Of a DNA stretch of 43,060 bases, positions 2,521 through 41,024 are shown one piece after another. The stretch is from a virus. The translations under genes were made by a program, and so were the position numbers. Numbering within the stretch: position 1 is the first letter of the stretch; the number at the start of each line of letters is the position of its first letter. Location: the IMG/VR virus record IMGVR_UViG_3300021962_000211, positions 1 through 43,060 of that record, one strand, 5' to 3'. Below the pieces are notes generated by a model. The model searched no databases. It was not told where the DNA came from and saw only the letters and a program-made list of their open reading frames with translations.

Positions 2521-3899
2521 TAGTAAGTACCGAATGGATTAGACTCTGAGAAATCGATTATACTGTCTGCCTGCAATTCAATCTCTTCATTTTGCCTGTA
2601 TTTATCTGTCTCTGTGTTTGCCGCAGAAACTTTGGTCTCATAAGCAGCACCAGACTTGGATCCAGTAATAATTTCACCTGGATAGAATGTACCAGTTGTA
2701 ATACCGACTCTAAGGATATTGGTATCGGTATCCCAATTTTTGACTCTTGCTGAAGCACCAGATCTTGAACCAGTTACAACTTCGTTGAACCAGTATGTTC
2801 CAATACCAGTTGTTGCAGCTGTTGCAACTGTTACGGTTGGTGCAGAGAAGAATCCTGCTCCAGCATCTGTAATATTGATTGAACTTATAGTTCCAGCAGC
2901 ACTTACAATTGCCGTTGCAGTCGCTGGTATATTTGGTGAGAGTGATGGTAGTGAGAAAGAAACTGATGGCGCAGTAGAGTATCCAGCACCTCCATTATTA
3001 ACAACAATACTGATAACACCCTTCTTGTCGGTAACGATTCCACAAGTAGCAGCAGCACCAGTTCCACCACCTCCACTGATAGTAATAGTTGGTGCTACGG
3101 TATATCCGGCACCAGCATTTGTAAGAATAATTTCTCGAATTGAGGTTATACTATTTCTAGTTGTTGTAATAGCAACTGCTTGAGCATCAGTTCCCCCAGA
3201 AGGTGCCGTTGTAATAGCAACTGTTGGTGTACTTGTGAATCCAGAACCATCATTATTCAGGAATATTTGTCTTACATAACCAGTTCCAATGGTAGCAGTT
3301 GCTGTTGCTCTTGTTCCACTGGAGTACATTGATACGTCAACAATATATCCAATATCTTCTAGAACTTCGTCTATTTCATCAATAGAAGTATCGAGAACTT
3401 CATCTTCATATTCGAAGAGTTCACACTGAAGTTCATAAACGTAATTTTTACCTAACTGGTAAAAAGGTTTTTCGTGCTCAACAAACTTTACTTCAAATAA
3501 TCTCTTTCCAAGAGGGAAATATACTAAATCACCTTCTCTTGGTCTATTAAAAACTGCAATTTCATTATCATCTTCACCTTCCAAAAATGGGGAAATAAAG
3601 TCTTCAAACCTTTCCCTTGATATTACAAGTGATACTTCATCTCTAACACTAACACCAAATTTAGTCATAATATCACCAGCACCACTATAACCATCGTAGT
3701 TATTGAGATATGCTTCCAATAAGAAGTTATCGTCAAAAACTGACGACTGTATCTCTTCAAGAATAGTTTGTTTTCTTACAAACTTTCTTGGAATATAAGT
3801 TACTTCAACCCCATATATTTTGAGTTGCTCGTTGATCAACTCTTGTATGAGTCTTTGTTCTCCTGAAGAACCTTGTAAGAAAAAAGGATTAAGTGCCAT
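2520..3899 (-). CDS. gp14: Neck protein gp14 with a large Gly-rich insertion
   Basis: Residues 1 to about 190 look like T4 gp14 (MALNPFF start, EQRLIQELINEQLKIYG, FNRPREGDLVYFPL, FEVKFVEHEKPFYQLG, YELQCELFEYEDE). The conserved end, SDxIIDFSESNPFG-like, is also present. Between them, about residues 197-433, sits a Gly/Ala/Thr-rich insertion with repeated pieces of the form GSGF..TPTVAIT, GAGYTVAPTITISGGGGTGA, GAGYSTAPSVSFS and GAGFFSAPTVTV. This makes the protein 459 residues against 256 in T4. gp14 and gp13 form the neck connecting the filled head to the tail. The insert resembles modules in the giant tail proteins of this window. TAATG overlaps link it to both neighbours. Confidence 0.92.
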   Translation of the reverse strand: MALNPFFLQGSSGEQRLIQELINEQLKIYGVEVTYIPRKFVRKQTILEEIQSSVFDDNFLLEAYLNNYDGYSGAGDIMTKFGVSVRDEVSLVISRERFEDFISPFLEGEDDNEIAVFNRPREGDLVYFPLGKRLFEVKFVEHEKPFYQLGKNYVYELQCELFEYEDEVLDTSIDEIDEVLEDIGYIVDVSMYSSGTRATATATIGTGYVRQIFLNNDGSGFTSTPTVAITTAPSGGTDAQAVAITTTRNSITSIREIILTNAGAGYTVAPTITISGGGGTGAAATCGIVTDKKGVISIVVNNGGAGYSTAPSVSFSLPSLSPNIPATATAIVSAAGTISSINITDAGAGFFSAPTVTVATAATTGIGTYWFNEVVTGSRSGASARVKNWDTDTNILRVGITTGTFYPGEIITGSKSGAAYETKVSAANTETDKYRQNEEIELQADSIIDFSESNPFGTY

Positions 3900-33108: not shown

Positions 33109-33167
33109 CGGGTTGTGTTCCTTTCGACCCTTATAAGATACATCAGAACGGGGGTCTGTGCCGAAAT

Positions 33168-33190
33168 GGTGGACAGTCCCCCAACTGTCC
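33168..33190. repeat. Dispersed hairpin repeat, copy A
   Basis: The core is GGTGGACAGTCCCCC then AACTGTCC, with 7-bp arms GGACAGT/ACTGTCC around a 6-base loop. It begins directly after the stop of the putative nuclease gene and can act as a transcript-end hairpin. Confidence 0.8.
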
Positions 33191-35549: not shown

Positions 35550-35610
35550 GAGAGGTGAGGTTGTTTGACTTGAGATAACAATACAGGATCTGGGGGACTT
35601 GTGTCGGTTT

Positions 35611-35635
35611 GGTGGACAGTCCCCCGACTGTCACA
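35611..35635. repeat. Dispersed hairpin repeat, copy B
   Basis: GGTGGACAGTCCCCC then GACTGTCACA; arms GACAGT/ACTGTC. It overlaps the stop codon of the 58-residue gene at 35631, as copy A abuts a stop. Confidence 0.8.
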
Positions 35636-35807: not shown

Positions 35808-35847
35808 GAAGACATGATGACACGGATTCGGACGCAATGGGGACAAT

Positions 35848-35872
35848 GGTGGACACCTACCCGACTGTCACA
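35848..35872. repeat. Dispersed hairpin repeat, copy C
   Basis: GGTGGACACCTACCC then GACTGTCACA matches copy B at most positions, but substitutions in the left arm weaken the stem. Confidence 0.65.
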
Positions 35873-36289: not shown

Positions 36290-36441
36290 TGATACGCAAG
36301 CGTGTTGTAATCTTGTGTATCTCGTGCATAATCCTCGTCGAGATCTTGTGCATCTAGTTGAGCATAATACTCGTAGAATACATCCTCGTCGAGATTATAA
36401 TCGTTGCTAAATGTATAGTCGAGATCGTAATCGTCGTACAT
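36277..36441 (-). CDS. Very small Asp/Tyr-rich protein with LDED repeats, 54 residues
   Basis: ATG 36441 opens MYDDYDLDYTFSNDYNLDED then VFYEYYAQLDAQDLDEDYAR and DTQDYNTLAYQHYA. It is extremely acidic and rich in Tyr, with three (D/N)LD(E/Y) units encoded by the DNA repeat ATCTCGAC. Such a composition could mimic DNA or bind cations or basic proteins, but this is speculation. A TACAAT promoter lies 33 bases upstream. I recall similar short acidic ORFs in cyanophages. Confidence 0.65.
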   Translation of the reverse strand: MYDDYDLDYTFSNDYNLDEDVFYEYYAQLDAQDLDEDYARDTQDYNTLAYQHYA

Positions 36442-36528
36442 AATTCTCGTCGAGATCTGATGAACGCTTGTTTATTGTAGCATATATCTAGTCGAGATTC
36501 AACCTTTCTAGGTATAAGTCTCGTCGAG
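36334..36528. repeat. Palindromic CTCGTCGAG repeat family
   Basis: Perfect copies of CTCGTCGAG start at 36334, 36385, 36446 and 36520, with degenerate copies near 36416 and 36488. On the minus strand they read ATCTCGAC. Three of the six lie in the 54-residue ORF; the others lie upstream of its start. Confidence 0.8.
36474..36479 (-). promoter_or_regulatory. Extended -10 promoter TGC-TACAAT
   Basis: ATATGCTACAATAAAC on the minus strand, 33 bases before the ATG at 36441. Confidence 0.6.
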
Positions 36529-36540
36529 ATTCATAACCAT

Positions 36541-36548
36541 TATTTATA
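36541..36548 (-). promoter_or_regulatory. T4-type late promoter TATAAATA
   Basis: A perfect late box in the gap upstream of the 54-residue ORF, giving this small gene both a sigma70-like and a late promoter. Confidence 0.65.
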
Positions 36549-36808: not shown

Positions 36809-36829
36809 AAAAAACCCCATTTAAGGGGT
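36809..36829 (-). terminator. Rho-independent terminator after the MKTF genes
   Basis: Minus strand ACCCC-TTAAAT-GGGGT followed by TTTTTAG, 24 bases after the stop of the 115-residue gene. Confidence 0.8.
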
Positions 36830-36852: not shown

Positions 36853-37200
36853 TTACCTTTGTTTTAGTTGTGCTACCCTACCAGTACCATAAGGTTGATT
36901 ACCAGAAGGAATTAACTGTTCTCTCTTCTTCTGTTGTTCTTCTCTATTACGTTGTGCTAATGGTTTCAATGCTAGATCATATAATGCTTTACCTGCACCA
37001 ATACCAGTAGTAACAACAGAAGACATTGGTGCAATATTCTTAGGTACTGCTTCTAATGCTTTTAACTTAGGAAGCATTGTTAGTGCATGAGTTGTTATAA
37101 ACGGTACTGCTTGTCTACCTGCATATCGAGTACCATAATGTACTGCTCTTAGACTTCTGCTAATGTCTGCTTCTTGAATGAATTGATTGAATGTTTTCAT
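36853..37200 (-). CDS. MKTF-type protein, likely packaged internal protein (115 aa)
   Basis: The N-terminus MKTFNQFIQEADIS closely resembles the capsid-targeting sequence of T4 internal head proteins (MKTxxEFIxEA form), which the gp21 protease cuts after an I/L-x-E site; here FIQE-A fits well. The rest is basic and partly hydrophobic (YAGRQAVPFITTHALTMLPK, MSSVVTTGIGAGKALYDLAL) with a Lys/Arg/Gln-rich tail. The inferred role is a protein packed in the head and ejected with DNA. TAATG coupling to the sister gene and a terminator after it make the two a small unit. Confidence 0.68.
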   Translation of the reverse strand: MKTFNQFIQEADISRSLRAVHYGTRYAGRQAVPFITTHALTMLPKLKALEAVPKNIAPMSSVVTTGIGAGKALYDLALKPLAQRNREEQQKKREQLIPSGNQPYGTGRVAQLKQR

Positions 37201-37598
37201 TAGTCTAACCCCTGTTGTTCTGCTGCTTTTCTCATTCTTTCACGCATTGCTTGTCTACGCAAATCCCTTTGTATTTGGGGTTGGTTTGCTCTTGCTGCTG
37301 ATGCTTCTCTTCTTGCAGTATCAGTACCAATTAACTCATCAATACCTTGTTCTGCTTTTTCTCTTGCCCTACGTTGCGCTTCTGCTTTACGTTCTTCTTT
37401 CTTCTGTCTATTATAAGCATCATTTGGATTAAGGCGACCACGTTGTACATTAGGAGTACGGGGTTTAGCAGTATCCGCCTTCATAAGATCAGATACTAAC
37501 TTAATACCACCAACAATAATAGGTAATGCTGCTTTACCTATAGGTGCTGCTAGTGGTAATACTAACGCTGCTTCTTGAAACTCTTGAAATGTCTTCAC
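37200..37598 (-). CDS. MKTF-type protein, likely packaged internal protein (132 aa)
   Basis: A GTG start at 37598 opens MKTFQEFQEAALVLPLAAPI. The first ten residues match the T4 capsid-targeting form, although the cleavage-like site is FQE-A rather than the usual I/L-x-E. A hydrophobic stretch follows (residues 11-38), then a very charged helical region (RQKKEERKAEAQRRAREKAE, and RRQAMRERMRKAAEQ at the end). It pairs with the next gene by a TAATG overlap and shares the start motif, so they are probably duplicates in function. No clear Shine-Dalgarno lies before the GTG. Confidence 0.65.
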   Translation of the reverse strand: MKTFQEFQEAALVLPLAAPIGKAALPIIVGGIKLVSDLMKADTAKPRTPNVQRGRLNPNDAYNRQKKEERKAEAQRRAREKAEQGIDELIGTDTARREASAARANQPQIQRDLRRQAMRERMRKAAEQQGLD

Positions 37599-37610
37599 CG
37601 CTATGATGGA

Positions 37611-37859
37611 TTACTTCTCATCATATTTATTTGCTCGTGACTTAATGTATTTCAACTGATGATAATACTCAGGGAAACATAACACTAACGTACGAGTCTT
37701 ATGGTGTATTGGACAATGGATAATATCCTCCTCATCCTTACACTTCACACCTATTTCAATCGTTATGTATTGGGAATCTTTGTAGTAGATCCAACCTTCT
37801 ACTGAGTGTTTATCTTTATTCCACATTACATAATCATCGACTTCAGGCGTATAAGGCAT
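37611..37859 (-). CDS. Small conserved-type protein (MPYTPEVDDYVMWNK)
   Basis: The 82-residue protein begins MPYTPEVDDYVMWNKDKHSV, followed by EGWIYYKDSQYITIEIGVKC and KDEEDIIHCPIHHKTRTLVL. The N-terminal part looks like a small beta barrel (VDDYVxW...GWIYYKDxxYITIE) and the CIHH-like CPIHHK plus Cys residues could hold a metal. I recall close relatives in many cyanomyoviruses; function unknown. It overlaps the gene upstream by 17 bases. Confidence 0.75.
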   Translation of the reverse strand: MPYTPEVDDYVMWNKDKHSVEGWIYYKDSQYITIEIGVKCKDEEDIIHCPIHHKTRTLVLCFPEYYHQLKYIKSRANKYDEK

Positions 37860-40118: not shown

Positions 40119-41024
40119 TCAACTGGTCTGGAATCGACCGCTGTTAAAGTTGGCGCGACTGAACGCCTCCCGCTTCACTAATTTGAAAAGACCGAACTCA
40201 TTCGCATAAACATAACCCTCAGCGTCAATTCGATCGAATCCCACATAAGCAGTGGGTCCATTGTTGCGACAAACCATCAAACAGTCGTCCTTAATAGCCT
40301 TGACTAATTTCCACAATCGAATTAAGTTGCGGTCGCAGTCGCAGGCGATGGTCAGTGCCTCCTCGTCCAGTTCGGCACCGACTTTTATGAAAGTGTTAAA
40401 TACCTTCTTCATTTCCTTCGCTTTCTTATCACTTACGAACTCACAGGTAGTAGACATTTGCTTAGCAAAACCCACAACCTCAATCATATCCTCAAATCGG
40501 TCAGCACCGTATGCTATCCATGCCTGAGGTTTGATAAACTTACAGTGATGAGTATCAGTCAGACTGAAGTCCAACGGGCGACCAACTGCATTGCGGAGAT
40601 CACTCTCAGCGTCATAATATGTGTGAGGTGCAATAATGATAGTCTCCCTAATCACACTGGGGAAGACATAGGTAATGGTGTTAGGTTGATACTCATCACT
40701 ACCACCAACACCGATAAAGTCGCCCTGCAAAATCCACGGAGTACGCGGCAGATAGTCATAGCAAAGATGTAGAATCTCTGCTACTTCACCAGTATGATTA
40801 TCATCAATGTCCTGGTGGGATTCATTGATCTTGATCTTTACCTTATTGAATACACTTTTCGTACCCACAAAGAAGTTACCAGTAGCAGGATTGCGTCCCC
40901 ACACAATAGCAGGAGCACCGTCAATCTTCAGACTCAACTTACCATCAGTCACAAACCAATTCAGTGCCGAAAGGTCACCCGTAAGGATAGAATCTTCGGG
41001 GTGTTCGATGTGAGTGTTTTGCAT
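40119..41024 (-). CDS. Putative nucleotidyltransferase of the RNA/DNA-ligase fold
   Basis: The 301-residue protein starts MQNTHIEHPEDSILTGDLSA. It shows, in order, the motifs of covalent nucleotidyltransferases: motif I KIDG (candidate nucleophile K33, in LSLKIDGAPAIVWG), motif III-like LQGDFIG (100-105), motif IV-like EGYVY (from E269) and motif V-like FKLVK (K281, K284). This set is found in RNA ligases, DNA ligases and capping enzymes. No OB-fold or other C-terminal domain follows, and the length fits a minimal catalytic domain. The substrate could be RNA, DNA or a protein. It starts one base after the upstream stop; CCAGTT-GAAG-AACTGG forms a hairpin at its stop. Confidence 0.6.
   Translation of the reverse strand: MQNTHIEHPEDSILTGDLSALNWFVTDGKLSLKIDGAPAIVWGRNPATGNFFVGTKSVFNKVKIKINESHQDIDDNHTGEVAEILHLCYDYLPRTPWILQGDFIGVGGSDEYQPNTITYVFPSVIRETIIIAPHTYYDAESDLRNAVGRPLDFSLTDTHHCKFIKPQAWIAYGADRFEDMIEVVGFAKQMSTTCEFVSDKKAKEMKKVFNTFIKVGAELDEEALTIACDCDRNLIRLWKLVKAIKDDCLMVCRNNGPTAYVGFDRIDAEGYVYANEFGLFKLVKREAFSRANFNSGRFQTS

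Follow-up and report, generated by a model that had tools for sequence, protein, structure and literature searches.

Two small genes, P2 and P1, stand next to each other on the minus strand of a virus sequence and open with nearly the same short peptide, and the question that they raise is whether this peptide is a T4-type capsid-targeting leader that brings their products into the phage head. The window that we analyzed is a complete IMG/VR virus record of 43,060 bases. Judging by its sequence relationships, it is a fragment of a T4-like cyanophage related to S-SKS1 and S-SRM01. These two Synechococcus phages gave the best matches to its baseplate region among phage records, and the DUF6267 genes closest to its own are those of S-SKS1, S-SM2, and S-SRM01. 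Neck, tail, and baseplate genes are present in the window, and genes 20-23, hence also gene 21, are absent from it. A gp21-type prohead protease is encoded by both S-SKS1 and S-SRM01, though not by the window fragment.

The P2-P1 gene pair and its relatives

Both open reading frames of the initial annotation were confirmed on the minus strand, within 37598-36853 (Table 1). The stop codon of P2 shares one base with the start codon of P1, which would be the arrangement of a translationally coupled pair. The mature proteins had been predicted to be basic, and this was borne out, with isoelectric points of 10.6 for P1 (105 aa) and 10.7 for P2 (123 aa) and net charges of about +11 and +10; a small, basic mature protein is also a trait of T4 IPI-III. 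Hydrophobic segments had been proposed for both proteins, and by the 19-residue Kyte-Doolittle mean such a segment is clear in P2 (1.95) and just moderate in P1 (0.93).

Table 1. Features of the P2-P1 locus (positions in the window; a slash marks a predicted cut)
Feature	Position	Strand	Description
Late promoter-like motif, T4 type	37624..37631	-	AATAAATA; 33 bases upstream of the P2 start codon
P2	37200..37598	-	132 aa, GTG start, begins MKTFQEFQEAALVLP; leader, hydrophobic segment, and basic helical C-terminal region
P2 leader	37572..37598	-	MKTFQEFQE; predicted prohead-protease cut after Glu9 (FQE/A)
P2 hydrophobic segment	37512..37568	-	ALVLPLAAPIGKAALPIIV; residues 11-29, directly after the leader
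P2 basic, predicted helical region	37212..37421	-	Residues 60-129; contains the conserved RANQPQIQ block
TAATG	37198..37202	-	P2 stop and P1 start sharing one base
P1	36853..37200	-	115 aa, ATG start, begins MKTFNQFIQEADISRS; leader and basic protein
P1 leader	37171..37200	-	MKTFNQFIQE; predicted cut after Glu10 (IQE/A)
Terminator-like hairpin	36814..36829	-	ACCCCTTAAATGGGGT plus T run; 24 bases past the P1 stop

Searches with Pfam, PHROG, and NCBIfam gave no match above noise for P1 or P2. Against 50,697 phage records, P1 had no match and P2 had one that is not credible (E=9). An AlphaFold model of P2 consists of helices with a mean pLDDT of 68 (66-93 in the RANQPQIQ block), and Foldseek found no significant match to it. 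As neither the phage records nor the PHROGs revealed homology between the mature parts and a T4 internal protein (IP), we class P1 and P2 as leader-bearing cargo rather than as IPs.

Relatives of P2 were found in environmental contigs (designated L with a number). The leader is retained in them, as are the conserved blocks PRTPNVQR and RANQPQIQ. In those that align from the N-terminus, an aromatic residue is always found at position 4 and Phe7 never varies, but the predicted cut shifts, being FQE/A in the window and L006, LHE/V in L003, and LQE/A in L004. The C-terminal domain of P2 stands behind a canonical MKTFSQFITE/A in L124, where the hydrophobic segment is missing, and L039, L040, and P-SSM2_205 have mainly the leader and the hydrophobic segment in common with P2 and differ in their tails. 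In L003, L004, and L036, the first gene is followed by more leader or leader-like genes, as P2 is by P1. Judged from these arrangements, the leader is the constant element of the P2/P1 region, and the modules that follow it are exchanged in the manner of a cassette.

The window also contains repeats. One that is G+C-rich and dispersed, with TGGTGGACAGTCCCCC-ACTGTC as its core, is found between small genes at 33150-33189, 35593-35632, and 35830-35869, and 36322-36533 holds several copies of a palindrome-like repeat, CTCGTCGAGAT, in and around a small MYDDYDLDYTF gene that occurs in related loci too. The sequence TATAAATA at 36548 points away from this gene.

Leader residues and the T4 targeting peptide

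For T4 IPIII, the first ten residues are reported to suffice for incorporation, with residues 4 and 7 carrying targeting and residues 8 and 10 carrying processing, and the same source gives a length of 10-19 residues for T4 propeptides (PMC9026906). Both P1 and P2 have the targeting residues, an aromatic residue at position 4 and Phe7 (MKTF..F), and both leaders end in the form of a prohead-protease site, with a hydrophobic residue at -3, Glu, and a small residue (I-Q-E/A in P1 and F-Q-E/A in P2). The P1 leader agrees with that of IPIII at all four key positions (aromatic 4, Phe7, Ile8, and Glu10). The shared leader-type start that had been claimed for the pair is thus present in both proteins, with the reservation that in P2 the match is at positions 4 and 7 and the Glu sits at 9 instead of 10. 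The usual cleavage site in T4 is I/L-x-E, and P2 has FQE instead.

We scored 87,400 shuffled N-termini from two cyanophage proteomes with a matrix derived from the leaders of T4, S-SRM01, and P-SSM2, and none of them scored as high as either leader. When the matrix was based on just the three T4 internal proteins, a single one of the 87,400 shuffles reached the P1 leader and none the P2 leader. The two leaders are therefore far beyond chance. A search of the 43-kb record for other gene starts of the form MK[ST][FY]..F, which the initial annotation had called for, found none. When used as a permissive DNA pattern in T4, this form recovers ipI, ipII, and ipIII plus gene 61.1, whose hypothetical product (NC_000866 18966-19130) starts MKTFKEFIKE/D and which lies outside the known internal protein set. 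In S-SRM01, the pattern has ten sites versus three for its reverse; eight of the ten read MK[ST]F..F, seven of these eight at annotated gene starts. The leader-type genes gp165, gp167, and gp168 of S-SRM01 stand directly behind its DUF6267 gene, in a neighborhood like that of the window. The DUF6267 gene of the window itself (40119-41024, minus strand) has no leader and looks ligase-like by eye (KxDGxP). A relative in L080 (947-2098) starts MKTFAQFISE/A, and the family profile phrog_455 reaches 22 positions upstream of the start of the window protein.

The same type of ending occurs in the major head protein genes of these phages: near its N-terminus, gp23 has FLSE/A, LLTE/A, or ILTE/A, which by analogy with T4 are presumed to be the gp23 cleavage sites. 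In our limited search of open-access papers, we found no description of this leader in cyanophages.

Compared with T4 IPI, IPII, and IPIII (MKTYQEFIAE/A), the likeness covers the MKT-aromatic-x-x-F start and the Glu-Ala end, and with IPII and IPIII also the Ile8 and Glu10 of the P1 leader. The mature proteins are likewise small and basic, and their genes would lie outside the head cluster. The differences are that the mature parts of P1 and P2 show no similarity to the T4 proteins, that the P2 leader is one residue shorter (FQE/A) and the leaders of some relatives are longer, that the hydrophobic segment of P2 is absent from T4 IPs, and that P1 and P2 are coupled with a late promoter motif upstream.

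Leader-type starts in other phages and in virion proteomes

The DNA pattern MKTFxxFxxEA occurs in at least 120 viral contigs, and a permuted version with identical composition, the single control pattern of the scan, occurs in 1. Some of the contigs may be unrelated phages or chance. Among the matches listed, 121 of 124 open ORFs of at least 40 aa, the carriers form about 55 sequence clusters, and a T4-like core gene is present on 81 of 120 fragments. Known domains starting soon after the leader, again among the matches listed, include adenylate kinase, glucosaminidase, lytic transglycosylase-like, GNAT acetyltransferase, P-loop kinase, nucleotidyltransferase, and DUF6267. The 51 cluster representatives of these matches have a mean column identity of 7% and little in common beyond the residues fixed by the pattern, and because the carriers are alike just at those residues, common descent of whole proteins does not explain the leader start. 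Taken at face value, this breadth would be a larger result than that for P1 and P2, and it rests on one control pattern. In T4-like phages of aquatic bacteria, the leader could be a general, exchangeable loading code for a large injected arsenal; in some of these phages the prohead protease would also cut cargo polyproteins, and P1 would be one of the resulting modules that occurs on its own as well. We rate this reading at slightly less than an even chance.

Published virion proteomes offer a more direct view of such leaders. Table 3 of PMC10665884 gives 52 virion proteins with coordinates for the related phage S-CREM2, out of 219. From OR473000 we translated every one of the 219 annotated genes, and the resulting N-termini were scored by a leader matrix for which T4, S-SRM01, P-SSM2, and the window family supplied the training sequences and S-CREM2 was excluded. 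Five N-termini stand clear, namely those of gp15, gp154, gp6, gp136, and gp14, with scores of 6.6-11.6 against 3.7 for the next; gp154 is a cytidylyltransferase, gp6 a SAM lyase, and gp14 kinase-like. All five are in the published virion list, which may include contaminants (p=6.5e-4, or p=4.4e-5 with the detected annotated structural proteins removed). The separation was less clean when the matrix was built solely from the three T4 leaders, with 5 of the top 7 in that list. Over all S-CREM2 virion proteins, the AUC of the leader score is just 0.53, as expected from the absence of leaders on tail and baseplate proteins, and the test depends on a small number of top scorers. These published data show that leaders of the P1/P2 type are associated with virion proteins in S-CREM2.

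Further S-CREM2 candidates seen by eye are gp13 (MKDLHSFLTE/Q) and gp12, with an internal LRFASFMAE/A. The published name of gp12, Cas9 (PMC10665884), was set aside, as Pfam gave no match. A short block, LGL..DGHG.Y.D..TG, follows the leader in gp12 and gp14 of S-CREM2 (L024) and in P-SSM2_194 (L021), and in these otherwise unlike proteins it is possibly a shared cargo module.

Other cyanophages add less. In S-SZBM1, one of three high-scoring leader proteins, a cytidylyltransferase, is on the virion list (p=0.36), and proteins 191 and 192 are absent from it; with one of three detected and a list of 30 proteins, this phage neither confirms nor contradicts the association. The T4-GC190 cytidylyltransferase of P-SSM2 starts MKSFSQFLTE/T, and T4-GC190 is reported from virions of S-SM1 (PMC3037559). 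The cytidylyltransferase/T4-GC190, SAM hydrolase, and kinase-like proteins of cyanophage virions have the same kind of leader as P1 and P2, which we recognized from their sequences (MKDFDSFLEE, MKRFDAFLTE, and MKNFSSFLTE). They differ in being larger enzymes, detected in virions by mass spectrometry according to PMC10665884 and PMC3037559, whereas P1 and P2 have no known domain.

Promoter motifs are consistent with late expression of such genes. The AATAAATA motif upstream of P2 recurs at -30 to -34 of its relatives in L003, L004, L006, and L036, and L006 retains it although the upstream gene differs. It occurs 12 times in the window, always on the gene-bearing strand and in several cases directly before structural genes. 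In S-CREM2, a late motif is found at five of seven leader-type virion genes versus 21 of 219 genes overall (p=9e-5); the seven include gp12 and gp13, which were chosen by eye and not by the matrix, and for the five matrix hits alone the count is four of five (p=3e-4). The terminator-like hairpin past P1 is weak evidence alone, since our search found 1 where shuffles gave 0.7, and it is the probable end of the P2-P1 unit. Because of the late motifs at P2, its relatives, and the S-CREM2 genes, together with this hairpin, the P2-P1 pair probably forms a late unit, with genes of early appearance around it. The pair had initially been described as lying next to early-type genes; the small ORFs around it fit that description, but the late promoter-like AATAAATA at -33 precedes P2. 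An analogy of P1 and P2 themselves to early genes found no support, as the motif stands upstream of both P2 and its relatives.

Probable head cargo and alternative readings

We consider it likely, with good confidence, that P1 and P2 are leader-targeted head cargo. The proposal that they are encapsidated by T4-like targeting peptides gains support from the residue match between P1 and IPIII, the five S-CREM2 top scorers, and the gp23-like leader end. As the promoter motif suggests, the two-gene unit would be transcribed late and encode cargo of the head. The 9-10 N-terminal residues would form a T4-type capsid-targeting sequence in which the precursor docks on the prohead core through Phe7 and the aromatic residue at position 4, and a gp21-like prohead protease would cut after the Glu that ends the leader, at FQE/A in P2 and IQE/A in P1. 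If packaged, the very basic mature proteins would be retained alongside the DNA inside the head and, as is assumed from the behavior of T4 IPI and Alt, would probably be ejected with it into the cyanobacterium. As to their role, our best guess, which we hold to be less likely than not, is that they are accessory proteins that associate with DNA or membranes and assist in delivering the genome or in the early takeover.

An addition to this reading, rather than a competitor, is that P1 was derived from or captured into a longer cargo polyprotein within an exchangeable cassette. A P1-like segment (56% identity, E 1e-37) is internal to a 557-aa protein of L002, where it has no MKTF start and is bounded by IIKGLMRE/Q and FENLDE/A, and the Glu of LMRE/Q aligns with Glu10 of P1. 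L033 lacks precisely this stretch, with LRRE joined to EFIDE/A, and L046, in which a leader replaces the upstream part, starts MKTFQQFLDE/ALASFLVRAAAR and matches L002 from LDE/A onward (E 2e-5). As the arrangements of L002, L033, and L046 coincide with protease-type sites, such sites mark the module borders in these sequences, with cleavage there being predicted. Against this stand the small basis of three loci, the lack of an N-terminal leader in L002 and L033, and a structural model of L033 that was unusable (mean pLDDT 38.7). We therefore hold the polyprotein origin of P1 to be possible and on the improbable side.

A true competitor is that P1 and P2 are scaffold-like parts of the prohead core, as T4 IPIII partly is, which would be brought in by their leaders, promote head assembly, and afterward have no role in the host. 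This would suit two small, basic proteins with no recognizable enzyme domains. According to PMC9026906, head assembly is slowed in T4 mutants of IPIII, and gp22 is recovered together with IPs on purification. Unlike core assembly parts, however, P1 and P2 are scarcely conserved, and the search of 50,697 phage records gave neither of them a credible match. Delivery also fits better than scaffolding because many unrelated enzymes carry leaders, and we regard a core role as unlikely. Least probable of all, in our view, is that the MKTFxxF start serves translation efficiency or binding to the membrane or to another phage assembly, with P1 and P2 acting in the cell and not in the head: T4 61.1 and an S-CRM01 acetyltransferase gene also bear such a start, and two of the three S-SZBM1 carriers went undetected in virions, but the agreement with the T4 targeting peptide at the level of single residues and its Glu-Ala end, the likeness to gp23 sites, the published detection of all five S-CREM2 proteins, and the low identity of the 51 listed cluster representatives, against whole-protein common descent, all argue otherwise.

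For leader-targeted cargo, the head-packaged ADP-ribosyltransferase Alt of T4 is the model of delivery, being packaged, cleaved, and injected. Its likeness to our sequences is by eye only, in L065 (MKTFSEFIAEA) and in the C-terminal part of the L002/L033 proteins; no sequence match was found, and nothing in P1 or P2 points to enzymes of this type. Giant phages of the phiKZ/SPN3US type, as described in PMC9026906, likewise combine a propeptide, a protease cut after Glu, and many ejected proteins, while belonging to a different phage group with leaders that are not of the T4 type.

A readable leader would matter beyond this locus. Cyanophage virions are reported repeatedly to hold unexplained cytidylyltransferase, SAM hydrolase, and kinases (PMC10665884, PMC9602691), and one of these two papers leaves open whether they are carried by the virion or left over in the preparation. 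Such a leader would bear on this question from sequence alone and would make it possible to predict, for any T4-like cyanophage, which proteins are packaged. Predicted packaging is testable in existing data, as peptides that begin right after the leader Glu.

The large proteins of L002 (6190-7863) and L033 (305-1642) are preceded by the gene that also stands upstream of P2 in the window. They have a HicA-like N-terminal part, and their C-terminal FHGTT... recalls ADP-ribosyltransferases by eye alone. We did not retain this identity, for them or for L065, as no sequence match was found: phmmer with the L033 protein against PDB sequences and tblastn with its C-terminal part against phages returned none, and the AlphaFold model of the L033/L002 protein was discarded for its low pLDDT. 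The L046 protein (2677-3564, minus strand) has, besides its N-terminal leader, a second leader-like sequence near its C-terminus, NFAQFMLE/GGG.
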